A stretch of 37,168 bases of DNA from contig CAJAXK010000374.1 in assembly GCA_903946925.1 (NCBI GenBank), forward strand, positions 1 to 37,168, written 5' to 3'. How positions within the stretch are numbered: the stretch's first letter is position 1; each line of letters begins with the position of its first letter. Position numbers and translations under genes: made by a program. The DNA is from an uncultured Bacteroidales bacterium. GTDB taxonomy: Bacteria > Bacteroidota > Bacteroidia > Bacteroidales > UBA4417. Positions 5,241 to 17,520 of this stretch are shown here, in pieces. The notes under the pieces were generated by a model. That model was not told where the DNA came from. It searched no databases and was given only the letters and a program-made list of their open reading frames with translations.

Positions 5241-6911
5241 ATGGGAATTTTTCGAAAATCGGAGGATAGAAAAAGTTTAGGCAACTTGTTTTTGGTCAAA
5301 TACCTAAAATTCGGAAGATCTATTTACGGTCGGGTCGTTTTGATTATAGCTATTTTATCTGTATTTCTTTTTGTGTCGTTTGGCTTTATTTTCCGCTCAG
5401 TTTACGAAAAATACCTCAACACGGTTATACTGCAAAGCGGTAACAACGTTGGCTCGCTTGTGGAAGGGGCGTTATATCATTCGATGCTTGAAAACGATGA
5501 AAGCGCACTCCGCAATACATTGGATGTAATACACACCTTGCCAGGCATTGAAGATGTGAATATGTACGATAATAAGGATAGCCTTATTTATACATCGTTT
5601 CCGGGCGACACGCTTGGCAGCATCAACCCCAATTGCAAGTCGTGCCACAAAAATATCGCACAAATGTTTCCCCGGAAGGAAAAATCGTACAAGATTATCA
5701 CCACCGAAAGCAAGTGTAGGGTAAATACAGCCAACAACAACCAAAGGTTTTTACTAATCAGGTCGCCAATTCTAAATGCAAAATCCTGCTACCAGAGTTC
5801 CTGCCATGCGCACAAATCAACCGATGATGTTTTGGGTTCACTAATTATTCAGGTCCCATTAAAGGAATTTGATTCCGCAGTCGAAAAATCCTCATTCGAA
5901 TTTTACATTTTGGCAATTGCAGCCACATTGCTACTTGCCTCATTTTTAATGCTTTTTACCCGCCGCGAAATCAAAAAACCATTGCATAAACTCATTCAAG
6001 CTAGCATAGCCGTTGCAAGTGGCGATAAAAACATGAGGTTGGAGGTAAAATCGAACCAATTGGATGATATGCGCATGGTTTCGAGTGCGTTTAACGAAAT
6101 GCTTGATAACTTACAGGCTGCCACAACCGAATTGGAAAACTGGTCGCAACAGCTTGAATATAAAATCCAAAAAAAATCGGAGGAACTTGGTACCGCACAA
6201 AGCGAACTTATGCATATTGAACGGCTCGCTTCATTGGGCAAATTATCATCATCGGTTGCTCACGAAATCAACAACCCACTTTCGGGCATATTGGTTTATA
6301 CAAAGCTGGTCTATAAACTATTGAGCAACCCTGACCTTACAAACGAAAAAAAGGAAGTAATGCTCAAACATTTGAAAATGATAGAATCGGAAACCAAGCG
6401 GTGTGGCGACATCGTAAAAGGCTTACTCGATTTTACCAAGAAAGATCAGGAAGGTTTTGAACCAGTACACCTCCACGAAATTTTGCTCGAAACAAATGAT
6501 TTAATGGCCCATCAGATTAAAATTGCGAGCATAAACCTGCTGACCGATTTTTCGGCAAAATCGGATTTGGTATATTGCAGCCCTAACCAGATAAAACAGG
6601 CTTGTGTTGCTATGCTTGTAAATGCAAGGGAAGCCGTTACCGAAAACGGGGAAATACTTGTTAAAACATCAAATCCTGACCGTGATACAATAAAATTTGA
6701 AATCTGCGATAATGGGATCGGAATACCAACTGAAGCCTTACCGCATATCTTCGAACCTTTTTTTTCGACTAAACAGGAGGCACGAGGAATTGGTCTGGGG
6801 CTTCCGATAGTGCATGGGATTATACTGAGCCATAACGGGAAGATACAGGTAAAATCGGAGCCAGGAAGAGGAACTACCTTTTCGGTATTTTTACCTTTAA
6901 TCAAAAAATAG
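5241..6911 (+). CDS. Sensor histidine kinase with periplasmic c-type haem motifs
   Basis: 556 residues. Helices at about 31-51 and 221-239 bracket a ~170-residue periplasmic domain. That domain contains CKSCH (132-136), a canonical c-type haem site, and CYQSSCHAH (183-191), a CX4CH variant; I recognise this pairing from sensor kinases of anaerobic bacteria. HAMP follows (about 240-293), then a coiled coil (295-325), the HisKA H-box with phospho-acceptor H341 (VAHEINNPLSG), the ATPase N box at N461, DNGIGI (490-495) and GIGLGLPIVHG. Likely function: sensing redox state or a haem ligand and phosphorylating the NtrC-type regulator downstream. Linkage to the ferredoxin/NrfD genes suggests it controls, or reads, their electron flow. 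Confidence 0.9.
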   Translation: MGIFRKSEDRKSLGNLFLVKYLKFGRSIYGRVVLIIAILSVFLFVSFGFIFRSVYEKYLNTVILQSGNNVGSLVEGALYHSMLENDESALRNTLDVIHTLPGIEDVNMYDNKDSLIYTSFPGDTLGSINPNCKSCHKNIAQMFPRKEKSYKIITTESKCRVNTANNNQRFLLIRSPILNAKSCYQSSCHAHKSTDDVLGSLIIQVPLKEFDSAVEKSSFEFYILAIAATLLLASFLMLFTRREIKKPLHKLIQASIAVASGDKNMRLEVKSNQLDDMRMVSSAFNEMLDNLQAATTELENWSQQLEYKIQKKSEELGTAQSELMHIERLASLGKLSSSVAHEINNPLSGILVYTKLVYKLLSNPDLTNEKKEVMLKHLKMIESETKRCGDIVKGLLDFTKKDQEGFEPVHLHEILLETNDLMAHQIKIASINLLTDFSAKSDLVYCSPNQIKQACVAMLVNAREAVTENGEILVKTSNPDRDTIKFEICDNGIGIPTEALPHIFEPFFSTKQEARGIGLGLPIVHGIILSHNGKIQVKSEPGRGTTFSVFLPLIKK

Positions 6912-6959
6912 TAAGTAGTTACCGTGTTAAATTTTACTGTTTTGAGGGTTTTGGAAGTA

Positions 6960-7197
6960 CCTTGAATGCCTAAAGTGCCTTGAATGCCTAAAGCGCCTTG
7001 AATGCCTAAAGTGCCTTGATTGCCTAAAGTTGATGCCTATAACGCTTTTAACCTTAAAATTCGGTAAAATGGCATTAACGTTATTTTCCAAAACTTAAAA
7101 ACTCTTAATACTATTTGAGTTTAGACCCTTGTTTATAAAGCAAATAAAATTAGCAAGAAACTTTAGGCATTTTAGGCACTCATAACTTTAGGCACTT
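6960..7197. repeat. Four 18-bp direct repeats with inverted copies downstream
   Basis: Bases 6960-7031 are four 18-mers (consensus CCTTGAATGCCTAAAGTG). Bases 7160-7197 carry the reverse complement of the core twice (ACTTTAGGCATTTTAGGCAC and AACTTTAGGCACTT). The block separates the kinase and regulator genes and can fold back on itself. The 312-bp gap holds no gene. Confidence 0.85.
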
Positions 7198-7223
7198 AAT
7201 TGAAAAATAATAATGCTATCGCC

Positions 7224-8558
7224 ATGGAAAAAAAAATATCAATACTGATTGTTGACGATGAAGATTCAGTTCGCGATTCGTTGAACCTTTGGTTTACAGA
7301 GGATGGCTACCGAGTGGAATGCGCCGAAAACGCGAAAAAAGCCCTGTCAATCCTCGAATCCGGTTCCTTCGATATAATCCTCACCGATTTAAAAATGCCC
7401 GGGATGGACGGCTTGGAATTGTTGCGTCGCATCAGGGCACTAAATAAAGAATCAATAATTATTGTGATGACAGCATTTGCATCGGTTGATACCGCCGTAA
7501 AAGCGCTAAAGGATGGGGCTTTCGATTATGTTACAAAACCCTTCGACCCCGACGACCTTTCGCATTTGATACGCAACGCAACAAAACAAATTTCGCTGAC
7601 CCACGAAAATGAAACCCTGAAGAAAAGAGTTGATTCACTGGAAAATGTTGAGGATTTGATTGGAAAAAGCGAAGCTATAAAACGGGTGTTAAAGGAAATA
7701 GAAAGCGTGGCACCGACCAATTCATCGGTTATAATTACTGGCGAAAGCGGCACTGGAAAGGAATTGGTTGCCAGGGCAATACATGCCAATTCGTTGCGGA
7801 AATTCTACCCGATGGTAAGTGTGCATTGTGGAGCCTTGACCGAAAGTTTGTTGGAAAGCGAGTTGTTCGGCCACGAAAAGGGCGCATTTACAGGCGCATT
7901 GTACAATCGTAAAGGAAGGTTTGAGATGGCAGATAGTGGCACAATATTCCTGGATGAAATTGCCACCATTTCGCAGAAAATGCAAATAGAATTATTGCGC
8001 GTGCTCGAATCCAAAAGTTTTATGCGCGTGGGCGGAAACAAGGAAATATCTTCCGATTTCAGGGTGATTTGCGCCACAAACCGCGATTTGAAAAGCATGG
8101 TCGAAAAAGGGGCTTTCCGTGAGGATTTGTATTACAGGCTAAACGTAATGAACATCCATGTGCCACCTTTGCGGGAAAGGGTTGAAGACATTCCCTTGCT
8201 CACCGATTACTTTATAAAAAAGTATTGCACCTCGATGAACAAACCGAAGATTACGATGGAACCAACAGCCTTAAAACGAATATTGGGCTATCAATTCCCG
8301 GGCAACATCCGCGAACTGGAAAATATGATCGAACGAGCCATTGTAGTCGGAAACGGCAAGAAAATAAGCCTCAAGGATCTGCCTTTTGGTAAAGATGCAA
8401 TTGACAGTTCGGTCGAAAGCCTTGACGAATTCGAGAAAACATTTATACTCCAAATCCTGAATAAATACAATTGGAATATTTCGCGCACTGCCCAAGCTTT
8501 AAAGGTTGATAGGGTTACGCTCTACAATAAAATTAAAAAATACGGGCTAAAATCTTAA
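7224..8558 (+). CDS. NtrC-family sigma-54-dependent response regulator
   Basis: 444 residues from the ATG at 7224. A TTG at 7200 is also in frame but lies against the upstream repeat and adds eight unconvincing residues. Receiver domain about 4-118 with phospho-acceptor D55 (LTDLKMPG). AAA+ domain about 145-370: Walker A GESGTGKE (173-180), the sigma-54 contact loop GAFTGA (220-225) and Walker B TIFLDE. A Fis-type helix-turn-helix lies at the C-terminus (WNISRTAQALKVDRVTLYNK). Partner of the haem-motif kinase upstream. Its targets should carry -24/-12 promoters; I saw no convincing one here, so the regulated operon may start left of the window. Confidence 0.93.
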   Translation: MEKKISILIVDDEDSVRDSLNLWFTEDGYRVECAENAKKALSILESGSFDIILTDLKMPGMDGLELLRRIRALNKESIIIVMTAFASVDTAVKALKDGAFDYVTKPFDPDDLSHLIRNATKQISLTHENETLKKRVDSLENVEDLIGKSEAIKRVLKEIESVAPTNSSVIITGESGTGKELVARAIHANSLRKFYPMVSVHCGALTESLLESELFGHEKGAFTGALYNRKGRFEMADSGTIFLDEIATISQKMQIELLRVLESKSFMRVGGNKEISSDFRVICATNRDLKSMVEKGAFREDLYYRLNVMNIHVPPLRERVEDIPLLTDYFIKKYCTSMNKPKITMEPTALKRILGYQFPGNIRELENMIERAIVVGNGKKISLKDLPFGKDAIDSSVESLDEFEKTFILQILNKYNWNISRTAQALKVDRVTLYNKIKKYGLKS

Positions 8559-8647
8559 TCAACTGAAAATATGCATTTAGGATAAGAAAACCCGATAACA
8601 CTTTAGTTTTAAGGCAGTAGAGCATCGCAAATTTATACCCAGCCTGA

Positions 8648-9172
8648 ATGGATTCCCGAACCATAACTTTGTTGTCATTTGGCCATTTTGATCGCGCTTT
8701 GCTTGAGAAAATTTCTGAGGCGGTTGCGCATGAATTCAATTGTATGGTCACGGTAAAAGAAGTAAGGCTCGATTTGACAGCATTTTTCGACCCAAGCAGA
8801 AGGCAATATAATGGAAATCTATTACTTAAAGAGGTGGAGGCAATGAGTTTACCAACATCCACAAAAACCATAGGATTATTCAATGTTGATCTTTTTATCC
8901 CAATATTAACCTACATTTTCGGGCAGGCACAATTAGGCGGTCCCACAGCCATTGCTTCCATATATAGGCTAAGCAACGAGAAATATGGGATGCTACCCGA
9001 TGAAAATTTAGTTTTTGAACGTTTCAAAAAAGAAATTATACACGAACTTGGTCATACCTTCAAATTATTGCACTGTCATTCAACATCATGCGTTATGCAC
9101 TCAAGCACTTATGTTGAGGACATTGATCAAAAGGAAGCCGGTTTCTGCCCAAAGTGCCGCAACTTGATTTAA
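8648..9172 (+). CDS. Archaemetzincin-type zinc metalloprotease
   Basis: 174 residues, the usual family length. The motif HELGHTFKLLHC (132-143) matches the archaemetzincin zinc site HExxHxxGxxHC except that the conserved glycine is Lys139. It is followed by C148-x-M150 and a C-terminal CPKC (167-170), giving the family's second, four-cysteine zinc site. Probably cytoplasmic, since no signal peptide is seen. Physiological substrates of bacterial archaemetzincins are not established. It follows the regulator gene by 89 bp on the same strand, with no evidence of a functional link. Confidence 0.85.
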   Translation: MDSRTITLLSFGHFDRALLEKISEAVAHEFNCMVTVKEVRLDLTAFFDPSRRQYNGNLLLKEVEAMSLPTSTKTIGLFNVDLFIPILTYIFGQAQLGGPTAIASIYRLSNEKYGMLPDENLVFERFKKEIIHELGHTFKLLHCHSTSCVMHSSTYVEDIDQKEAGFCPKCRNLI

Positions 9173-9231
9173 GCAGCTTGCTTTGCTACACACAATGATT
9201 ACGAAAAGGTAATTTGCTATTTTTCCTACTA

Positions 9232-9384
9232 TTGAGTCCGCTCCGAAAACCTAAAGATGAAAAATCGCCACAAAGACACTACGACTCAAAGGTTCACAAA
9301 GCATTGTTATTCTGTGTTATAGACTTATTGAAACGTAGAGGCTTCGTGCTTTTGTGGAGAAAACACTTTTCGGTATGGACTCAA
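9232..9384. repeat. Fold-back repeat element, copy 2
   Basis: The 18-bp ends TTGAGTCCGCTCCGAAAA and TTTTCGGTATGGACTCAA are inverted repeats (16 of 18 bases pair). The interior is CGCCACAAAGACACTACGAC ... GTGCTTTTGTGG. An open frame covering it (9214-9492) is not a gene. Confidence 0.9.
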
Positions 9385-9789
9385 AATTTAAAAATTCCAG
9401 GCTTGGTGAGGTATTTTTATACAACCACGCAAAGGGATTCGCACGGTAGCTTGGTAGCTGGTTTTTTCAGTTTTGCAAAGCTGGTAAACTAACATTATTT
9501 GATTGGTTGGCATAAAGCGCGGACTGCTTATTAATAACTGCTATAAATTGCGATGGGTTTGTAGGGAAAGCGGTATTAAAATGTACTTTTGGTTTGCTAT
9601 TCAAAACATAGTTTGAAGCCCACAGATACTATCCGTTTGCACCCGCTTATAATTGTTTGCTACCGTTTAATTTATTGTTTTGGATGTATGGAAACAAAAT
9701 ACTACAAACCACTGAATTACGGATACAAAAGGAATACCCCAGTTACAGATAAAGCCGAAATAAACACAAGTGGTTAGGTATACACAGAT
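9385..9789. other. Non-coding stretch left of the cassette array
   Basis: Between the fold-back element and the first cassette I see no gene. A 62-codon open frame (9589-9777) has no family features and no initiation signal. A small inverted pair AACCACT (about 9708) and AGTGGTT (about 9770) is present, but no full attC or attI partner could be recognised, so the left border of the array is unresolved. Confidence 0.4.
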
Positions 9790-9827
9790 GTTATAGGGCA
9801 TTGTAAGACGACACCAAACTGACAAAT

Positions 9828-10436
9828 ATGAACGTTGAAAATAACTTTTTAGTAATCCGACATTCTATCCGTGAAAAAATTACGGATGTGAATGATAGTT
9901 ACCGCCAACGACTGACGGAAGAAGGAATTGAACTCGCCATTCAGTTGGGCAAAACTCTTTCAAAACATTCTGACAATTTTACTTTCTATCACAGTCCAGT
10001 TCCGAGATGTGAAGAAACAGCAGTTTCAATTAAAGAAGGAATTGAAAGCCAGAACAAAAATGTTTTCAAGGTAACAGCATTTGAGCCTTTAGGCGGCTTT
10101 TTCAATAGAGACTTTAAAACAATTGCGGACTTGTGCCATCAAGCGGGACACGAAAAATATTTACAAGACTGGTATGGAAATAAAGTATCTCCCGAAATTG
10201 TTATGCCTTGCTTCGAAGCCGCAAACTTTATGTTTAAAGAAATTACAAATACAAATCACGAGAACACTACAAAAGTATTCATAACACACGACTGGAATTT
10301 ATTTAGCTTACAATCACTTTTTAAGCAATCGGTGGCAGAAATGGAAATCCCCAATTATCTTGAGGGCATAATTATTTCCAGCGACAAGAAAACTTTTAAT
10401 TCATTTAAACAAGAACACTTTATAAATAACTTCTAA
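9828..10436 (+). CDS. Histidine phosphatase family protein
   Basis: 202 residues. The N-terminal VIRHSIRE (9-16) is the phosphatase-superfamily RHG-type motif with catalytic H12 and Ser in place of Gly. HSPVPRCEETA (55-65) supplies the second arginine region, and ITHDW (152-156) supplies H154, the proton-donor side. No signal peptide, so cytoplasmic. First gene of cassette 1, starting 37 bp after the cassette border and 21 bp before the radical SAM gene. It may remove phosphate from a small metabolite made or used by the other two enzymes; that is inference from linkage only. Substrate unknown. Confidence 0.82.
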   Translation: MNVENNFLVIRHSIREKITDVNDSYRQRLTEEGIELAIQLGKTLSKHSDNFTFYHSPVPRCEETAVSIKEGIESQNKNVFKVTAFEPLGGFFNRDFKTIADLCHQAGHEKYLQDWYGNKVSPEIVMPCFEAANFMFKEITNTNHENTTKVFITHDWNLFSLQSLFKQSVAEMEIPNYLEGIIISSDKKTFNSFKQEHFINNF

Positions 10437-10457
10437 ATCCCATTACAATTATTTACT

Positions 10458-11411
10458 TTGAACTTAATAGACCAACAAAATTCATTAGTCATAGATGTTA
10501 CATACAACTGTAACGCAAAGTGCCATTATTGTCAATGGGGCAACAGTAAAACACCTGGACGAGTTAGTCAACCTGACGAATACATCTACATTTCAAACGA
10601 CACTTTAAACCATTTACAAACCGACAGAATAGTTTTTTCAGGCGGAGAGCCACTTTTACGACATGACTTAGAAAAAATAATTGCTCATTACAAACAGACA
10701 ACCGTTTCTTCAATCGTTACAATTACAAATGGCTTTCTTCTTACACAGCAAAGAATAGAAAGTTTAGTAAATGCAGGTTTAACTGGCATTGCATTTTCTA
10801 TAGACAGCTTTGAAACAACGACTGCATTTGAAACAAGAGCATATAATCAAACTCAAATTGAAAAAGTAAACTCAAATTTTATTCTTGCTCTTTCACTAAA
10901 AGAAAAATATAAACTTGAAATTGGAATTAATGTTGTTCTTTCCTCAGCCAACATTAGGAACAAACAAATTGAGAATTTAATTTCTTTCGCAAATAACTTT
11001 CCGCTTGACTGGATAAAGTTTCAACCAATATTTGATGACGGTTATGTAGGCGCAAATGCTTCGCATTTGCTCTTAACTTCCGTTCATTCTGGACTTATCA
11101 GAGAAATCGGAAAAAACATTTTAGCAATAGCTAAAGCCGAAACAAATCCTGTTTCATTTTGGAACAGTTTAGCCGACATCTTGGAAGGTAAAAAACTAAT
11201 AGGAAAAACTTGCGGACTTGATACAAGACAGGCAATAGCGCAAAAAGGAATAATGAAAATTTGTTCTTGGATAGATTACCCAACTTATGATTTAACAAAG
11301 AAAACATTTACCGAAACACAAATAGAATTTACAACAATTAAACCCAACTGTAAAACAGGAACATTTTGTTATTGCTTACAAAAGTTATCACATAGTTGGA
11401 CAACAGAATAA
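10458..11411 (+). CDS. Radical SAM protein with C-terminal cysteine cluster
   Basis: 317 residues from a TTG start, 21 bp after the phosphatase stop; no ATG lies before the cluster motif. The radical SAM motif is C18-x3-C22-x2-C25 (CNAKCHYC), and GGEP at 62-65 is the SAM-binding motif. Further cysteines at 252, 269, 298, 304 and 306 (KTCGLD, ICSW, NCKTGTFCYC) resemble a SPASM/twitch auxiliary iron-sulfur site. Such enzymes often modify peptides or sugars; with a glycosyltransferase and phosphatase as neighbours, a sugar-linked metabolite or modified peptide is possible, but no precursor peptide gene was seen. Middle gene of cassette 1. Confidence 0.85.
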   Translation: MNLIDQQNSLVIDVTYNCNAKCHYCQWGNSKTPGRVSQPDEYIYISNDTLNHLQTDRIVFSGGEPLLRHDLEKIIAHYKQTTVSSIVTITNGFLLTQQRIESLVNAGLTGIAFSIDSFETTTAFETRAYNQTQIEKVNSNFILALSLKEKYKLEIGINVVLSSANIRNKQIENLISFANNFPLDWIKFQPIFDDGYVGANASHLLLTSVHSGLIREIGKNILAIAKAETNPVSFWNSLADILEGKKLIGKTCGLDTRQAIAQKGIMKICSWIDYPTYDLTKKTFTETQIEFTTIKPNCKTGTFCYCLQKLSHSWTTE

Positions 11412-11413
11412 AT

Positions 11414-12520
11414 ATGATTTCAATAGATGTAATAATACCTTCTTATCGTTTACAAAGCGAATATCTTTTACCGACTGTTCAGATGGAAATTCCTTCTGAA
11501 ACAAAAGTTCGTTATCTAATAATTGCGGACAATCCGCAATCGGAAATTCCGAGTGACTTCAAGGATTTCATAGACAATGAAAAGGTAATTCTATTTCGAA
11601 ACAAAGAAAATCACGGTGCACATAAAAGCAGAAATGTGGGTATAGATAATTCCACAGCCGACTGGATTCTATTCATTGACGATGATGTAAAGCCATCAAA
11701 AAATCTTTTGCAGACTTATGTAAATGAAATAAAAGAAAGGCCAAATGAAGTAGGCTTTTTCGGAGAAACGCTATTTCCCGAACCTATAAATAAATTTACA
11801 AGAGGTTTAATCGCTTGTGACATTCTAACTTTTTTCTTCATTGCTGGTTATTACAAAGAATTAAAATGGGCACCGACAGCAAATGTCTTAATCAAGCGTT
11901 CGGCAATTGGAGACATACGTTTCAAAGAAATATTTCCTAAAAACGGTGGTGGCGAAGATATTGACTTCTTCTTACAAATTTATGAAGTAACAAAACAAGA
12001 ATTACAATGCTTGACAAATGCAAAAGTTTTTCATAGTTGGTGGTATAACGGAAAAAGAAATTATACAAGGTTTATTCGTTGGTCATACGGAGACGCATTA
12101 CTTCATACGATTTTTCCGCAATACACATATTACAATTTTCCGAACGTAATTGAAAGTTTAGTTTTTGGAATTGCTTTTAGTTTGACTGCTTGTTTTTATT
12201 TAGGCTCTATTCTTCCTTTGCTTTGCGTTCTGACAGGAATTGTAATCGGAGAATTTTTAATTGAGTTTATACGAATGGTTGTAAATAAAAAACTTAAACA
12301 AAGTCAATATGCTTTTGAAGGTGCATTAGTAAGAGCATCCAACGACACGGGGCGACTTTATATGCAGTTAATAAAATTGAAAAGAATAAAAGGAATTTGC
12401 GAACGTGCCGACCATTTTTGTGATGGTAGACACATAGCATATCAACGACTTTGGGCAGGACTAAAATTCACTACATATTTATTAATTTCGGCAGGACTTT
12501 TTTACTTAATACGAAAATGA
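11414..12520 (+). CDS. Glycosyltransferase family 2, membrane-associated
   Basis: 368 residues from the ATG at 11414, three bases after the radical SAM stop; an in-frame TTG at 11396 would overlap that gene and is less likely. GT-A fold motifs: IDVIIPSY (4-11), the metal-binding DDD at 89-91 (FIDDDVKP) and the acceptor-side GGGED (178-182). Two or three hydrophobic segments near 245-290 and a final helix at about 350-366 suggest attachment to the inner membrane. Donor and acceptor are unknown. Last gene of cassette 1; its stop is 28 bp before the start of attC-1. Confidence 0.86.
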   Translation: MISIDVIIPSYRLQSEYLLPTVQMEIPSETKVRYLIIADNPQSEIPSDFKDFIDNEKVILFRNKENHGAHKSRNVGIDNSTADWILFIDDDVKPSKNLLQTYVNEIKERPNEVGFFGETLFPEPINKFTRGLIACDILTFFFIAGYYKELKWAPTANVLIKRSAIGDIRFKEIFPKNGGGEDIDFFLQIYEVTKQELQCLTNAKVFHSWWYNGKRNYTRFIRWSYGDALLHTIFPQYTYYNFPNVIESLVFGIAFSLTACFYLGSILPLLCVLTGIVIGEFLIEFIRMVVNKKLKQSQYAFEGALVRASNDTGRLYMQLIKLKRIKGICERADHFCDGRHIAYQRLWAGLKFTTYLLISAGLFYLIRK

Positions 12521-12548
12521 TTAACTTGACGGACAGAAAAACCACGCC

Positions 12549-12680
12549 CTATAACAGCACCTACAAAAAATTGGCGGTTCAGTGGTTAAATGAAGCTTTG
12601 AGCTTCGTATCAAGTTCAGTGGTGGCAGACAGTTTAGAGCTTCGAAATCGCCAACTTCTTGTAGCTGCAAAACGTTAGAG
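12549..12680 (+). other. attC-like recombination site 1
   Basis: 132-bp imperfect palindrome: CTATAAC at the left end, GTTAGAG at the right. The inner arms GCACCTACAAAAAATTGGCG and CGCCAACTTCTTGTAGCTGC pair at 17 of 20 positions. The AAC/GTT termini and the long variable centre are the layout of integron attC sites. The next cassette starts with the TTAGAG of this site. Confidence 0.75.
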
Positions 12681-13537
12681 GTTATTTTTTGAGACCGCAG
12701 TGAAATCAACACTTTCAAAGAAATAACGGCATTTGAAAAATGGAAAAATCTATATTCGAAAAGCATCCGTCAAAATTACTAAATGAACTTTATTCTAAAA
12801 GGAATTACCAAGGTGCAAATCCTGTGGAAGCGCAAATTTTATTTGTAGGACGAGATCCAAATTGGGCATTTGAGGTGGAAACTAAAGAAATGTTTAATTA
12901 CGTTTCTGAATATTTAACTGACGGAGTAACTTTTTGGGAAACTTACAATATTCATCATCCTTTTTTATTGCCAAATTATAAAGGAGACGGAAAACGTTAT
13001 CATAAAATTTTCTCTAAACTAAATATTGAAAGTAGTTTGGCAAGCAAAATTTCATTTGTTGAACTTATTGGTTTTCCAACTACTGGAATGGCAAAAACGA
13101 ACAACAAAATCTTTTTAGAATATTTAATTTCCGCAGAAAACAGAAAGCACTTAATAGAATTGGACAAGCTATTAAATGACTTTGAAAAAGCAATATTCGT
13201 AGCGTGGGGTTTACTTGAAGATTTTAAATTTTTAAATAGAGAAACTGGATTATTCAGAAAATTAGCAGAAATAGACAAAAGCGGAATGAATATTAGCGAA
13301 TTAAATCAACACGAAAACATTTATGTTCATCGTCATTTTTCTGATGCGATTAGTAATGCAACACTTGAAAAAATGAAAACAGAAATAAAACGGAACATAA
13401 AATAAAACAACCGCTAACTGCCGTTTGGAAAGATTGCGAATTTTGTGGTAAATTCACGTTTACTTTCCGCAATAAATTTTATCTTTAGTGGAAAATAAAC
13501 GGTTACGAAGTTCGCAACCTCGCCAAGCGGCGGAACA
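12675..13537 (+). mobile_element. Integron-like cassette 2 (one gene)
   Basis: 863 bp. The opening 12674-12690 (GTTAGAGGTTATTTTTT) matches the reverse complement of 13402-13418, the left end of its own attC, at 14 of 17 positions. It holds one gene on the + strand, the typical cassette content. Confidence 0.75.
12740..13405 (+). CDS. Uncharacterised cassette protein, weakly UDG-fold-like
   Basis: 221 residues, no signal peptide or membrane helix. I cannot assign a family with confidence. The layout resembles the uracil-DNA-glycosylase fold: a strand followed by GRDPNWAF (37-44; compare GxDPY, the catalytic-water motif), a central ISFVELIGFPTTG, a strand AIFVAWG, and a late HRHFSDA (compare the HPSP-type loop). 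The conserved catalytic details differ, so enzymatic activity on DNA is unproven; it could also be a relative with another base- or nucleotide-related role. Sole gene of cassette 2. Confidence 0.6.
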   Translation: MEKSIFEKHPSKLLNELYSKRNYQGANPVEAQILFVGRDPNWAFEVETKEMFNYVSEYLTDGVTFWETYNIHHPFLLPNYKGDGKRYHKIFSKLNIESSLASKISFVELIGFPTTGMAKTNNKIFLEYLISAENRKHLIELDKLLNDFEKAIFVAWGLLEDFKFLNRETGLFRKLAEIDKSGMNISELNQHENIYVHRHFSDAISNATLEKMKTEIKRNIK

Positions 13538-13543
13538 TTAGCA
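13412..13543 (+). other. attC-like recombination site 2
   Basis: 132 bp, the same length as site 1. Left end CGCTAAC; right end ATTAGCA, where the usual G before TT is A. Inner arms CTGCCGTTTGG...GATTGCGAA and TTCGCAACCTCGCCAAGCGGCGG pair over about 17 of 23 positions. Confidence 0.7.
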
Positions 13544-15202
13544 GTAATTGTAGCAAGACAGCAGATAACAAACAAAAAATGACAAGACAAATAATTTTTT
13601 TCCTTTTGGTAATATCAAGTTTGACAACATTTGGTCAAGTTGATAAAACAACAGCCTTGTATAAAACTATCAAAGAAAAAGACAGCCTACTGTTTAATCT
13701 TGGGTTTAACAACTGCGACATCAAGCAATTTGAAAATCTTGTCAGTGAGAATTTTGAATTCTATCACGACCAATCAGGAATTACAAATTCAAAAACCGAT
13801 TTTATTACTAGCATTAAAAACGGACTTTGCAAATTAGCCTACAAGCCCAAAAGAGAATTAGCCGAAAATAAAATGGAAGTTTATCCTTTAGAAAAAAATG
13901 GTGTTTTGTATGGTGCTATTCAAACAGGTATTCATAACTTTTATGCAATTGAAGATGATAAATCTGAATACCTCACCAGCATTGCTAAATATATACACGT
14001 CTGGATCCTGGAAAATGGAAATTTTAAACTATCAAGAGGTTTAAGCTACGACCATAGAGATTTTGAGAAGCCTTTTAATCAAGAACTTTTGTTTACTGAC
14101 AAAAACGAAACGGAAAGATGGCTAAAACAAAAACATATTCCTGCATTAGGCATTGGTTTCGTTAAAGATGGTAAAATTGAACAAATGAGTGTGTTTGGAG
14201 AGTTACAGACAAACAAACCTGCACCCATTAATACAATATGGAATGTTGCATCAATGACAAAGCCCATTACAGCCATTGTTGCCCTAAAATTAGTAAATGC
14301 AGGGAAATGGGATTTAGACGAACCTATTTATAAATATTTTACCGACCCTGATGTTGCGAACGACCCAAGAGCAAAATTATTAACTACGAGAATAATTTTA
14401 AGCCATCAAACTGGTTTTTCAAATTGGCGTGGTAACAATGCAGACGAAAAGTTATCTTTTGAATTTGAGCCTGGAACAAAGTACCAATATTCGGGTGAAG
14501 GATATGAATACTTACGAAAAGCATTAGAAAAGAAGTTTAAGAAGTCATTAGAGCAATTAGCAAGTGAATTGATTTTTAAACCTCTAAAAATGAAAGACAC
14601 CAAATTTATTTGGGACGACAAAATGGACACAACAAGATTTGCAAAGTGGCACAATGATAAAGGGGAGCTTTATGAAATCCAGAAAAACAAAACTGCCAAT
14701 GCAGCAGACAATTTGCTGACTACAGTTGAAGACTATTGTAAATTTTTGGTTCATATATTAAATGGTGCTGGCTTATCTGACAAATTATATAAAGAGATGA
14801 TAGCTGACCAAGTTAGGATTAATGATTACAAACATTTCGGCTTAGGGTGGTGGGTAGATGAAAACATAAACGAAAATAAAGACTTTGCTCTTGTTCACGG
14901 AGGTGACGATATTGGTGTTCATACAATAACCTTTGTTATTCCAAACACAAAACAAGCACTATTAATTTTTACCAACAGCGACAACGGTACTGATGCCTTT
15001 GCAGAAGTACTTGTAAAATTTTTAGGAAAAGATGGAGAAGGAATATTGAATATAGAAATGAAATAACAACTACTGCCAACAGCGGTTTGGCGTAGTGGCG
15101 GGTTCAGTGCTTCGTATGACAGTTTTGTAGTTGGTTCAAGTTGCAAGTTCTTCGATTTAACTTTTGTGCTAACAATCCGCCACTACGCCAAGCCTCAAGA
15201 CG
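13538..15202 (+). mobile_element. Integron-like cassette 3 (one gene)
   Basis: 1665 bp. The opening ATTAGCAGTAATTG (13537-13550) matches the reverse complement of 15067-15080, at the left end of its own attC, at 11 of 14 positions; the three differences are all A/G. Contains one secreted hydrolase gene. Confidence 0.72.
13579..15066 (+). CDS. Secreted serine hydrolase (class C beta-lactamase fold) with N-terminal NTF2-like domain
   Basis: 495 residues. A signal peptide (about 1-19, ending FGQ) implies export. Residues ~25-155 look like an NTF2/SnoaL-type domain (DUF4440-like: LVSENFEFYHDQSG ... VWILENGNFKLSRG). Residues ~180-490 form a penicillin-binding-protein-like hydrolase with nucleophile S225 in SMTK (225-228), YSG at 304-306 where beta-lactamases have YxN, and HGG near the end. 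The missing Asn suggests an esterase or peptidase rather than a true beta-lactamase. Sole gene of cassette 3. An antibiotic-resistance role should not be assumed. Confidence 0.87.
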   Translation: MTRQIIFFLLVISSLTTFGQVDKTTALYKTIKEKDSLLFNLGFNNCDIKQFENLVSENFEFYHDQSGITNSKTDFITSIKNGLCKLAYKPKRELAENKMEVYPLEKNGVLYGAIQTGIHNFYAIEDDKSEYLTSIAKYIHVWILENGNFKLSRGLSYDHRDFEKPFNQELLFTDKNETERWLKQKHIPALGIGFVKDGKIEQMSVFGELQTNKPAPINTIWNVASMTKPITAIVALKLVNAGKWDLDEPIYKYFTDPDVANDPRAKLLTTRIILSHQTGFSNWRGNNADEKLSFEFEPGTKYQYSGEGYEYLRKALEKKFKKSLEQLASELIFKPLKMKDTKFIWDDKMDTTRFAKWHNDKGELYEIQKNKTANAADNLLTTVEDYCKFLVHILNGAGLSDKLYKEMIADQVRINDYKHFGLGWWVDENINENKDFALVHGGDDIGVHTITFVIPNTKQALLIFTNSDNGTDAFAEVLVKFLGKDGEGILNIEMK

Positions 15203-15208
15203 TTAACA
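15074..15208 (+). other. attC-like recombination site 3
   Basis: 135 bp with left end TGCCAAC and right end GTTAACA. The inner arms GGCGTAGTGGCGG and CCGCCACTACGCC are a perfect 13-bp inverted pair. It shares GGTTCAGTG and GCTTCGTAT in its variable centre with site 1. The array ends here: no further attC is seen to the right. Confidence 0.78.
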
Positions 15209-15336
15209 ACTATGTTTTTACAACCGCCAAAATTTGACATATAAAGTGTACTATATAGCACTTTTTAATAAGAATCTTGTACTTATAAGAATTAGCCGAA
15301 TAATTGGCTGATTAGTGCCTTAAAACGCACTATTGG

Positions 15337-15385: not shown

Positions 15386-15625
15386 ATGCACCATGAAAAG
15401 CTTATTAAAACCATAAAAGAACGCAGGGATGTTATGCAAGTAACGCAAGAAACCTTAGCAGAACTATCGGGGGTTGGCTTAAGAACCTTAAAACAGTTTG
15501 AAAGTGGCAAAGGCAATCCAACGTTGATTACTTTGCAAAAGTTGTCCGATGTGCTTGGTTTGGAGGTTTGCCTACAACTTAAAAATATAACCAAAGCAAA
15601 TGAGACAGGCGAAAATACTATATAA
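15386..15625 (+). CDS. hipB: HipB-type antitoxin, XRE-family DNA-binding protein
   Basis: 79 residues with one Xre/Cro helix-turn-helix (about 10-62: TQETLAELSGVGLRTLKQFE). First gene of a three-gene operon; it overlaps the next frame by 26 bp. In HipBA and HipBST systems HipB binds the operon's operators and represses it together with the toxin. Cytoplasmic. Function is assigned from domain and order; the operator was not identified. Confidence 0.85.
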   Translation: MHHEKLIKTIKERRDVMQVTQETLAELSGVGLRTLKQFESGKGNPTLITLQKLSDVLGLEVCLQLKNITKANETGENTI

Positions 15626-15929
15626 GGACGAAGATGCAGGCGTGTTAACACAGAACGATGATGGTTCGTTTGTGTTCCGGTACAATGCTGCTTGGATGGC
15701 CGACAGTAAAAAACCAGGAATATGTCTTGGTTTCCCCAAAAGTGAGAAAGAATATTATTCAAAATTCTTGTTTCCGTTTTTCTACAACATGTTACCCGAA
15801 GGATCCAACAAACAAATAGTTTGCAAATATAACCGCATTGACAAAAATGATTATTTCGGATTGCTGCTCACTACTGCCAAATATGATAGCATAGGTGCGG
15901 TAAGAGTGATTAAAATAGAAAAGATATGA
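15600..15929 (+). CDS. hipS: HipS-like protein (separate HipA N-terminal subdomain)
   Basis: 109 residues resembling only the N-terminal subdomain of HipA (LTQNDDGSFVFRY ... GFPKSEKEYYSKFLFPFFYNMLPEG), followed by a stop and then the kinase gene. A natural gene split rather than a frameshift is likely because it has its own ATG, stop and 4-bp overlap (ATGA) with the next gene. In the E. coli O127 HipBST system the separate HipS neutralises the HipT kinase; I infer the same role here. Confidence 0.8.
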   Translation: MRQAKILYKDEDAGVLTQNDDGSFVFRYNAAWMADSKKPGICLGFPKSEKEYYSKFLFPFFYNMLPEGSNKQIVCKYNRIDKNDYFGLLLTTAKYDSIGAVRVIKIEKI

Positions 15930-16909
15930 GTTTACCCGAAATAAAATATTGCCCAGGTACATTAGCCGAGGGATTTGATACCTACAGCAGAACTTGCTTA
16001 AATAGGGTATTTCGGGGCAAAGCGGTGTATCATGTATTGCCTTATGATTCACCTGCTTCTAATCCTGAGACAGATGAATTATTCGAAGAAAACCGAAGAA
16101 ATATGTCTATCTCAGGAGTTCAGGAAAAATTTTCGGTTTTGCTTGAGAAGAACAAGTTGAGACTTATCAATGAGGGTGAGCGCGGTACTTATATACTAAA
16201 ACCAATTCCTAACGCAGGTAAAAATACAGATCAAATGCCGGCCAATGAGCACCTTACAATGCAAATTGCCCGTCAGGTTTATGGTATAGAAACTGCTGAA
16301 AATGCACTGATGTTTTTTAAAAATGGGGCTAAGGCATATATCACCAAGCGTTTTGATATAAATGAAAATGGCATTAAATTGGCTCAGGAAGATTTCGCAT
16401 CCCTTGCAGGCAGGACTCCTCAAACCCATGGAGAGCATTATAAGTATTTGGGGAATTATTTGGAGCTATTTCAATTAATGCAAACAAATGTACCTGCTTA
16501 CAAATTGGAAGCTACCAAGCTCTTGAAAGTACTGCTATTTAACTACCTGTTTTCAAATGGCGATGCTCACTTTAAAAACTTTTCGTTGCTCGAAACCTCG
16601 ATGGGAGATTTTCGTTTAAGTCCGGCTTATGACCTTTTAAATAGTCGTATTCATATTGACGATAAAGACTTTGCACTGGAAGACGGACTTTTACATAAAA
16701 GTTTAGCTCAAGGGAAAATTGGCAGACAATTTGCCATTCTTGCCGAGCAAGCAGGAATCGGTGAAAAGGTTTTTAATGGTATTTTTTCTATGATGCTTTC
16801 TCATTCAGAGGTTGTTAGGAAAATGACATCTTCATCATTCTTAAACGAAAACACAAAAAGCAACTACTTTCAGTCTTACCAATGGCGTTTAAAACAATTG
16901 ATGAAATAG
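15926..16909 (+). CDS. hipT: HipT-like serine/threonine kinase toxin
   Basis: 327 residues. MSISGVQEKF (60-69) is the Gly-rich-loop segment with the S61-I-S63 pair that is autophosphorylated in HipT. Catalytic D213 and N218 lie in NGDAHFKN, and the metal-binding D236 in SPAYDLL. All key kinase residues are present, so the toxin should be active. It lacks the N-terminal subdomain of full-length HipA, supplied here by the preceding gene. HipT of E. coli phosphorylates tryptophanyl-tRNA synthetase; the target here is unknown. The operon sits directly right of the cassette array. Confidence 0.87.
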   Translation: MSLPEIKYCPGTLAEGFDTYSRTCLNRVFRGKAVYHVLPYDSPASNPETDELFEENRRNMSISGVQEKFSVLLEKNKLRLINEGERGTYILKPIPNAGKNTDQMPANEHLTMQIARQVYGIETAENALMFFKNGAKAYITKRFDINENGIKLAQEDFASLAGRTPQTHGEHYKYLGNYLELFQLMQTNVPAYKLEATKLLKVLLFNYLFSNGDAHFKNFSLLETSMGDFRLSPAYDLLNSRIHIDDKDFALEDGLLHKSLAQGKIGRQFAILAEQAGIGEKVFNGIFSMMLSHSEVVRKMTSSSFLNENTKSNYFQSYQWRLKQLMK

Positions 16910-17143: not shown

Positions 17144-17520
17144 GGGGCTGACCGGTTTTGACAGCAAGGACAGTGGGATTGTAAGCATGCCGGGACTTTG
17201 AGTGAATGGCCCGTTAAAACCAAACACCCGCGCCAACTAAATGGCAACAATTACGATTACGCATTAGCCGCTTAATCACAGAATTAACCTGCTAATTGTC
17301 CTCCGGGAAGCCTCGCCATCCGGCGTCCCGCTCAAGGGCATCGAAAAGGGAAGGATAAGGTTGCCGGAGTCCTGACGGCAGCTCGAAAACCAAAGGGAAT
17401 AAGGCATGGATTGGGTGGCTTTTTGCCGGTTTATGCACGACAATCAACTAAAAGCTAAGCATGTAGAAAGCGGTTTTGCTGCTTGTTTGGACCCGGGTTC
17501 GACTCCCGGCAGCTCCACCA
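17144..17520 (+). ncRNA. ssrA: Transfer-messenger RNA (tmRNA)
   Basis: 377 nt. The 5' end GGGGCUG pairs with the 3' CAGCUCC (one G-U), followed by ACCA with an encoded CCA; the T-arm GGGTTCGACTCCC is intact. The tag reading frame at 17243-17275 reads GNNYDYALAA then TAA, close to tags of other Bacteroidota (GETNYALAA type). It rescues stalled ribosomes and marks the nascent chain for proteolysis; SmpB is not in this window. A strong hairpin follows. Confidence 0.97.

Follow-up and report, generated by a model that had tools for sequence, protein, structure and literature searches.

An integron-like cassette array in a Bacteroidales bacterium and its probable link to a non-IntI tyrosine recombinase

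Integrons are the textbook gene-capture platform of bacteria and are thought to depend on the integrase IntI. Arrays of attC sites without an integrase (CALIN arrays) are also well known (PMC9024848 and PMC8618304, in part). Here we analyzed a stretch of 37,168 nucleotides (the window) from an uncultured Bacteroidales bacterium, in which an integron-type array without an integrase had been predicted. Sequence comparison makes it very probable that the array in the window belongs to an integron-like system found widely in Bacteroidota, whose enzyme is a tyrosine recombinase of its own, distinct from IntI; recombination itself we infer from that comparison. In many Bacteroidota, genes seem to be gathered and exchanged in small cassettes, as in the resistance integrons but with another recombinase and differently built sites. 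No account of such a system was found in the titles and abstracts of the open-licence PubMed Central papers that literature searches listed.

The array in the window

The array begins at G9790 and holds three palindromic sites of about 135 bp, one at the end of each cassette. Its parts and right flank are as follows (+, plus strand).

9461-9789, +: attI-like leader, conserved; left part of the array, up to the first G/TT
9559-9591, +: candidate cassette promoter, TTG - N22 - TACTTTTG, a pattern match only
9790-9806, +: start of cassette 1 at G/TT; mirrors the left end of site 1 (13/17)
9791-12674, +: cassette 1, delimited by the boundary test; three genes
9828-10436, +: histidine-phosphatase-like protein, 202 aa (PF00300, 22.6 bits; cut-off, 21.7)
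10458-11411, +: radical SAM protein, 317 aa, MoaA/viperin-like, under family cut-offs
11414-12520, +: glycosyltransferase family 2 protein, 368 aa (PF00535, E 3.5e-13)
12548-12682, +: site 1 (attC-like), crossover G12674, ends cassette 1; 139.6 bits with model R1, which was built partly from this site
12675-13537, +: cassette 2; boundary match 14/17
12740-13405, +: protein without known family, 221 aa, in cassette 2
13411-13545, +: site 2 (attC-like), crossover A13537; R1, 91.7 bits
13538-15202, +: cassette 3; boundary match 12/17
13579-15066, +: serine beta-lactamase-fold hydrolase, 495 aa, in cassette 3 (PF00144, E 1.9e-42)
15073-15210, +: site 3 (attC-like), crossover G15202, right end of the array; R1, 119.7 bits
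15600-16909, +: HipA-type genes of the right flank, beyond the array; synteny, common to genomes G002 and G003

The model matches agree with the original prediction of three palindromic sites spaced by gene-sized segments. All five cassette open reading frames lie on the plus strand, and the cassettes are more AT-rich than their neighbors (GC, 0.32 to 0.35 versus 0.40 to 0.41 in the flanks), again as predicted. The contents and extent of the segments needed two corrections: cassette 1 has three genes, and the conserved leader belongs on the left of the array. At its crossover, site 2 carries ATT in place of GTT. For the radical SAM protein, all PADLOC matches were viperin-like, and the 221-aa protein matched nothing in Pfam, NCBIfam, or PADLOC. 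The N-terminal part of the 495-aa hydrolase is DUF4440-like, under the cut-off. In the right flank, homology of contig C31 of G003 to the window restarts at 15212, just past site 3, and the open reading frame at 15926-16909 is of the HipA type (PF07804, E 5.5e-40). An Rfam search of the window at gathering scores returned only a tmRNA.

The predicted lack of an integrase was borne out: PF00589 had no match on the window's contig (C374), and matches lie on eight other contigs of the same genome. With three sites and no such match, the window has what defines a CALIN (at least two attC sites and no integrase) if its sites are counted as attC. The leader is about 80% identical to the stretch 3' of the stop codon of a recombinase gene in a sister species (G002, contig C453), and a related leader also adjoins recombinase remnants on contigs C406 and C405 of that genome. 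In the window, the leader is kept and no recombinase gene stands beside it; the window array has lost this gene. Elsewhere in the same genome, which has no full member of the array-recombinase family, contig C18 carries at least the contig-cut end (31 residues) of a 97%-identical recombinase, an enzyme that could act in trans on the window array. Bacteroidetes promoters are of the -33/-7 type, which the candidate in the leader resembles; this pattern, a pattern match only, occurs in the window and at the equivalent place in L038 and is aligned in 3 of 3 leaders.

Boundaries, sites, and exchange between species

The original prediction rested above all on the first bases of each segment, which mirror the left end of that segment's site. 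The 17 bases from each crossover matched the reverse complement of that end at 13, 14, and 12 positions in cassettes 1, 2, and 3, respectively. When the 14 bases after every GTT or ATT in the window were scored, an equal or better match was found at just 2, 1, and 2 of 1944 positions, with the true starts counted. This mirroring is the pattern that a unit closing into a circle would leave. It extends beyond the window: in 67 pairs the mean match was 5.93 of 10 bases versus 3.28 for shuffled pairs, and in a further 75 pairs it was 7.29 versus 3.62, with weak matches (6/10 or fewer) in 19 of the 75 and in many of the first 67. Of 285 model hits (135 + 46 + 58 + 46), 250 entered the tests that gave the 75 further pairs; antisense echoes, contig-cut hits, some of the weakest hits, and duplicate contigs (L176, L200, L203, and L211, equal to L130, L110, L132, and L134, respectively) were left out.

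The sites share an architecture. A canonical attC has heptanucleotide R boxes, extrahelical bases, and an unpaired central spacer. In the sites studied here, AAC and GTT ends and a hairpin are present, and the outer arm of about 15 bp is laid out as a 10-bp arm, an invariant unpaired A, and a 4-bp arm. This A, at position 11, was invariant in 56 of 56 pairs, these being the members of the 75 preselected at a match of at least 7/10 (positions 14 and 15 lie outside the selection). Across the 23 sites of set A2, 92.2% of stem cells were paired versus 67.6% in shuffles, and both sides changed in 17 of 19 pairs. Compared with shuffled DNA, folding energies alone were better for sites 2 and 3 (z, -3.97 and -2.88) but not for site 1 (z, -0.54). 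A first site pattern had no match in the window's own genome because it was too strict.

A region that was always intact in relatives would have counted against the prediction, and the reverse was found: the locus is not the same in three species of the genus, and their borders lie at the predicted points or no more than about 10 bp away. At the orthologous locus, one sister species has the leader followed by a different cassette, and another has no array. A search with both flanks within the genus turned up no locus that matched on both sides with the site fully empty. A 99.6%-identical block follows the leader in the genome of the window and a different site in a sister species, joined exactly at the predicted G/TT. 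Cassette content varies from species to species, with borders at G/TT.

Dispersed palindromic repeats, such as MITE-like elements or insertion-sequence ends, could give a similar picture if genes were swapped only by homologous recombination between them. Site sequences indeed agree at 71 to 94% from genome to genome although the intervening genes differ, and on two contigs of one genome (G030) the same 20 bases follow all listed sites, which fits a plain repeat. However, four observations are not predicted by a plain repeat: the outer 15 or so bases of each segment that mirror the left end of the site closing it, the invariant unpaired A, a head recombinase whose leader stops at this same point, and a block that follows a leader in one species but a site in another. 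We rejected plain repeats on the boundary signature and the exact-border exchange and give this explanation very little credence.

Distribution of the sites and the recombinase at the array head

A covariance model detects sites in 153 of the 295 genomes sampled from the order and in 171 of 395 from the phylum. The original remark that integron arrays have seldom been described from this phylum is in line with PMC9024848 (in part), but the sites themselves are common. Array carriers include the cultured, non-pathogenic species Arundinibacter roseus (L174) and Solitalea agri (L190). In the complete genome G237, all 14 sites found lie on one strand in a single 53-kb block (2,251,061-2,304,393), and a recombinase gene (2,306,652-2,307,458) lies just upstream of the block. 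Where recombinase loci had room, same-strand downstream sites were present at 14 of 15 (strong at 13), six of these loci having been chosen with prior knowledge of a site on the contig. For 80 loci picked by the recombinase alone, 54 of 58 site matches were downstream and on the recombinase strand; of the 35 named loci with 1.5 kb or more of downstream sequence, 12 had no site by the model. Sites were present in 87 of 110 genomes with the recombinase versus 66 of 185 without it, the latter defined by no match at E ≤ 1e-40 (Fisher P = 2e-13). The first cassette started 24 to 223 bp past the recombinase stop codon at 9 of 15 loci, where this point is the analogue of an attI beside an integrase gene; at the other six, the first start lay at 739 to 1107 bp in three and was not found in three. 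The gene order is the recombinase, a short attI-like leader ending at G/TT, and cassettes on the same strand, each ended by a palindrome of about 135 bp.

These data bear on whether the array is a remnant of a classical integron, in which a canonical IntI, lost here or acting from elsewhere, moves ordinary attC sites. The layout is integron-like, CALIN arrays have precedent, and four of the five genomes of the order with a true IntI also carry Bacteroidota-type sites somewhere. Against this, of the 295 genomes of the order, only 5 have an IntI above the TIGR02249 cut-off, compared with 153 that have sites; no model site was present on any of the five IntI contigs (3.0 to 19 kb read); a search of the window's genome for intI gave nothing above that cut-off; and a different recombinase heads the arrays. 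IntI was rejected as the array enzyme, and a classical remnant is very unlikely. The prediction had left a choice between a CALIN and an unfamiliar enzyme; the latter is the better option, since the arrays of relatives lie directly behind a non-IntI tyrosine recombinase.

The array-head enzyme is a tyrosine recombinase encoded on the same strand as the downstream array, with R399, K424, H488, R491, H514, and Y523 (catalytic) invariant in 20 of 20 members. All six array recombinases tested scored below the cut-offs for both IntI (TIGR02249, 167 to 224 bits; cut-off, 265) and XerA (NF040815, 192 to 213 bits; cut-off, 220). The nearest solved structure, by sequence profile (192.5 bits) and by fold, is 2a3v, an IntI. 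Its residues 181-243, an IntI segment of about 60 residues, are unmatched, with 20 residues there instead, and matches to the IntI profile split at profile positions 180/238. In a tree that did not include one of the five IntI proteins (L102), the array recombinases fell outside the IntI clade and apart from the Xer proteins of the genome.

The host XerC/XerD might instead recombine the sites, as in dif-flanked modules. The window's genome does encode two Xer-like recombinases and no full array-family member. However, dif sites are about 28 bp, whereas these sites are 135-bp hairpins, and the array-adjoining recombinase is distinct from the Xer proteins on the tree. We consider this explanation scarcely credible.

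Array recombinases usually carry N-terminal repeats apparently related to the HARP domain, although 4 of 20 diverse members lack them. PF07443 (HARP) matched about half of the close members (25 of 48; E ≤ 0.1, with 1.3e-7 the best value) and only 1 of 20 diverse members, and PDB entry 4o66 matched the repeats at E 0.0014. A fold search with the N-terminal model gave nothing at E ≤ 0.001; XPB was among the matches listed (Z up to 6.3), and 4o66 was not among the best 50 listed. The HARP repeats of eukaryotic SMARCAL1 bind forked DNA. No open-licence PubMed Central paper was found that mentions "HARP domain" and "tyrosine recombinase" together.

Proposed mechanism and comparison with known systems

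We propose that the recombinase would fold the site or recognize it as a hairpin of single-stranded DNA, that a cassette would be excised as a circle by joining G/TT to G/TT, and that the circle would be inserted at the leader or at another site. The first cassettes may be expressed from a promoter in the leader. The HARP-like repeats may recognize the folded site, replacing the IntI insertion in this role. The chances seem about even that this is a separately evolved second kind of integron across Bacteroidota, with a recombinase that reads folded DNA by means of HARP-like, fork-binding repeats and not by the IntI insertion, with sites of its own architecture, and with a presence in about half of the genomes sampled from one order. 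If so, a whole phylum that abounds in water, soil, and guts has a parallel platform that IntI-based searches miss, and much strain-specific gene content of Bacteroidota may move via cassettes. Two old questions then become testable: whether the integron principle has a single origin or several, and what a protein must have in order to recombine single-stranded sites in their folded form.

Among known proteins, the HARP domain of SMARCAL1 (4o66) is similar in sequence to the N-terminal repeats, whereas the array recombinase has no helicase. The catalytic part resembles that of XerA (NF040815), yet neither XerA nor the "integron-like" subgroup shares the N-terminal repeats. Smyshlyaev et al. (2021) described the insertion as not fully conserved in that subgroup (PMC8138268, in part), so some array recombinases may belong to it; the excerpted text of that paper held no mention of a cassette system for insertion-less members.

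Among known arrays, CALINs are attC clusters without IntI (PMC9024848, in part), and the window array likewise has sites without an integrase gene, but its relatives carry a head recombinase of another family. In the reverse integrons of Treponema, recombinase and cassettes run in the same direction, as here, but the enzyme is a true IntI (PMC7691350, in part). IntI integrons, such as the Vibrio cholerae chromosomal integron, share the recombinase, the attI-like point, the head-to-tail cassettes, the imperfect palindrome with AAC and GTT ends closing each cassette, and the G/TT junctions. The Bacteroidota enzyme differs in scoring below TIGR02249, in having 20 residues in place of 2a3v 181-243, in its N-terminal repeats, and in its position outside the IntI clade. 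Finally, IntI attC sites have heptanucleotide R boxes (PMC2727003, in part), whereas the Bacteroidota sites have an outer arm of about 15 bp with a conserved unpaired A.

Cassettes and sites in the window

In the window, three palindromic sites set apart three cassettes holding five genes, all on the plus strand, as follows.

Cassette 1, + strand: histidine-phosphatase-like protein, radical SAM protein, glycosyltransferase
12548-12682: site 1
Cassette 2, + strand: one protein of unknown family
13411-13545: site 2
Cassette 3, + strand: beta-lactamase-fold hydrolase
15073-15210: site 3

The starts of cassettes 1, 2 and 3 mirror the left end of their own site at 13/17, 14/17 and 12/17 positions, and for each cassette at most 2 of the 1,944 GTT/ATT positions in the window equal the score of the true start. 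The radical SAM protein (10458-11411) is viperin- and MoaA-like, yet below both cut-offs. Immediately left of the leader, the attI-like region at 9461-9789, lies a stretch (9231-9389) that recurs in several genomes of the genus (e.g., G002, G011, and G013). HipB/HipA-type genes (15386-16909) lie right of the array, and beyond them a tmRNA gene (17144-17520; tag GNNYDYALAA).

When 60 genomes, the window's own among them, were searched with the DNA of the array, 20 had matches, to the sites and the leader and hardly to the genes. In the stronger matches the sites were 71 to 94% alike, and on either side conservation did not reach past the predicted border. Across 23 aligned sites, 17 of the 19 stem pairs vary on both sides, and 92.2% of cells are paired, versus 67.6% in shuffled and at most 48.5% in slid controls. 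A covariance model found sites in 41 of the 60 near genomes, with 30 sites in the window's own genome, in 153 of 295 genomes of the order (E ≤ 1e-6), and in 171 of 395 genomes of the phylum. One site of genome G009 (L015, contig C65, 1468-1602) has the left arm of one site type and the right arm of another, with an unpaired stem; it is perhaps a hybrid remaining after two sites recombined with each other. At two loci of genome G030 (L077 and L078, contigs C9 and C7), every site-like palindrome has the same or nearly the same 20 bases behind it (GATGATATAGCATTCGCCTG). This is unlike cassettes, and the palindromes are perhaps a dispersed repeat of site origin.

Inferred exchange at the predicted crossover

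A 2,909-bp block is 99.55% identical between the window's own genome (C40) and the sister species G002 (C155). It starts exactly at the predicted crossover, /GTTATAAGCC, and lies behind the leader in the former and behind another site in the latter. Loci L040 and L044 have the leader in common and diverge directly after G/TT, and L216 and L219 share recombinase and leader (97.7%) and diverge directly after. Among 150 ends of similar stretches, 10 were no more than 3 bp from a predicted crossover, versus 0.43 expected; 3 of the 10 stem from the odd G030 repeats. The orthologous locus in G002 (C405) has a recombinase remnant, the leader, and the hipA-type genes of the window; its single cassette, carrying a site of its own, is a different one. 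In the second sister species (G003, C31), the hip genes are present, homology with the window runs from 15212 onward, and no site was found within 12 kb.

The ten bases after GTT were compared with the mirrored left end of their own site in consecutive same-strand site pairs. The mean match was 5.93/10 in 67 pairs versus 3.28 when shuffled (maximum of 2,000 shuffles, 3.82), and 7.29/10 in 75 pairs from other loci versus 3.62 (maximum, 4.13). The signature is not universal, since 19 of these 75 pairs scored below 7. Among the 56 scoring at least 7/10, positions 4 to 9 are paired in 54 to 56, position 11 is A in 56/56 and paired in none, and positions 12 to 15 are paired in 45 to 51.

Recombinase and array side by side

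P0007 (G002:C453, 543 residues) is a tyrosine recombinase that directly precedes the leader type also heading the window's array. Of the 295 genomes searched in the order, 110 carry a match to it at E ≤ 1e-40, the weakest matches taking in ordinary Xer-like proteins; sites are present in 87 of these 110 versus 66 of the 185 without a match. A strong match was found in 13 of the 14 genomes of the genus searched. The window's own genome yielded no full family member; a 31-residue recombinase start, 97% identical, sits at the very end of its contig C18, and the gene may therefore have been cut by the assembly.

Twenty recombinase loci were fetched, 6 of them chosen with a site on the contig already known. 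Of the 15 with more than 1 kb remaining downstream, 14 have same-strand downstream sites (13 at E below 1e-7; L114 is weak), unlike G232, where no downstream site was found. In a second set of 80 loci, selected by recombinase alone from named records across Bacteroidota, 54 of 58 site matches lie downstream on the recombinase strand, with 512 kb of upstream and 216 kb of downstream DNA searched; of the 35 loci in which the downstream DNA ran to 1.5 kb or more, 23 have a site. Named strains with both recombinase and sites include Arundinibacter roseus, Algoriphagus antarcticus, Solitalea agri, Spirosoma sp. 48-14, and Breznakibacter xylanolyticus. The 14 sites found in the complete genome G237 all occupy the minus strand of a single 53-kb stretch, and the recombinase, also on that strand, lies 2.3 kb upstream of them. 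In G228, likewise complete, the recombinase is followed by 4 of the 15 sites, with the others scattered. G678:C2 carries 16 same-strand sites in 20 kb behind a recombinase.

An attI-like point was sought in 15 loci by scanning the DNA behind the recombinase for a mirror image of the left end of the first site. The scan placed the first-cassette start 24 to 223 bp past the stop codon in 9 (24 to 232 bp when counted from where the protein match ends) and at 739 to 1,107 bp in 3, where an earlier site may have been missed; no start was found behind the recombinase in the other 3. The leader is about 410 bp in the window's genus.

In L072 (G039:C3, 10783-15160), the first cassette after the recombinase seems to contain a restriction-modification set (two methyltransferase-like genes and one further gene). 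L075 (G042:C48, about 5900-14270) is a ten-site array with most genes opposed to the site direction, adjoining a short (266-aa) recombinase that points away from it, with phage-like genes and a TIR-like gene around; it would be an odd or inverted version of the system.

The recombinase family compared with IntI

HARP domains bind forked DNA. One to three N-terminal repeats were judged by eye to be present in 16 of 20 aligned family members. Pfam HARP matches 25 of 48 close members and 1 of 20 diverse members, and the SMARCAL1 HARP structure ranked first in a PDB profile search of the repeats (E = 0.0014). Structure models reached pLDDT values of 83 and 86.9. Foldseek with the modeled repeats gave no match at E ≤ 0.001, and a second fold search had XPB and MutS domains among the matches listed, at Z 4 to 6.

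Just 5 of the order's 295 genomes have an IntI above the TIGR02249 cut-off, and the window's own genome has none; many recombinases of the order, P0007 among them, align to the two outer parts of this profile only. The active-site residues are invariant in 20/20 family members, and all 6 members tested score below the TIGR02249 and NF040815 cut-offs. A 38-protein tree groups the four IntI in one clade (100/100), with all 31 family rows outside. Of these rows, 26 fall in a weakly supported group (85/86), and the whole family is not one clade, long branches leaving the deep joins unsure.

By sequence profile, the nearest solved structure is the integron integrase 2a3v (192.5 bits; XerA, 181.6; XerD, 124.9); the family has only 20 residues opposite 2a3v residues 181-243. 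Heptanucleotide R boxes are described for canonical attC sites (PMC2727003), from which the outer arm of the present sites therefore differs. Judged by layout and comparative evidence, the system appears to work like an integron; it is not an integron under the usual definition, because its integrase is not IntI.
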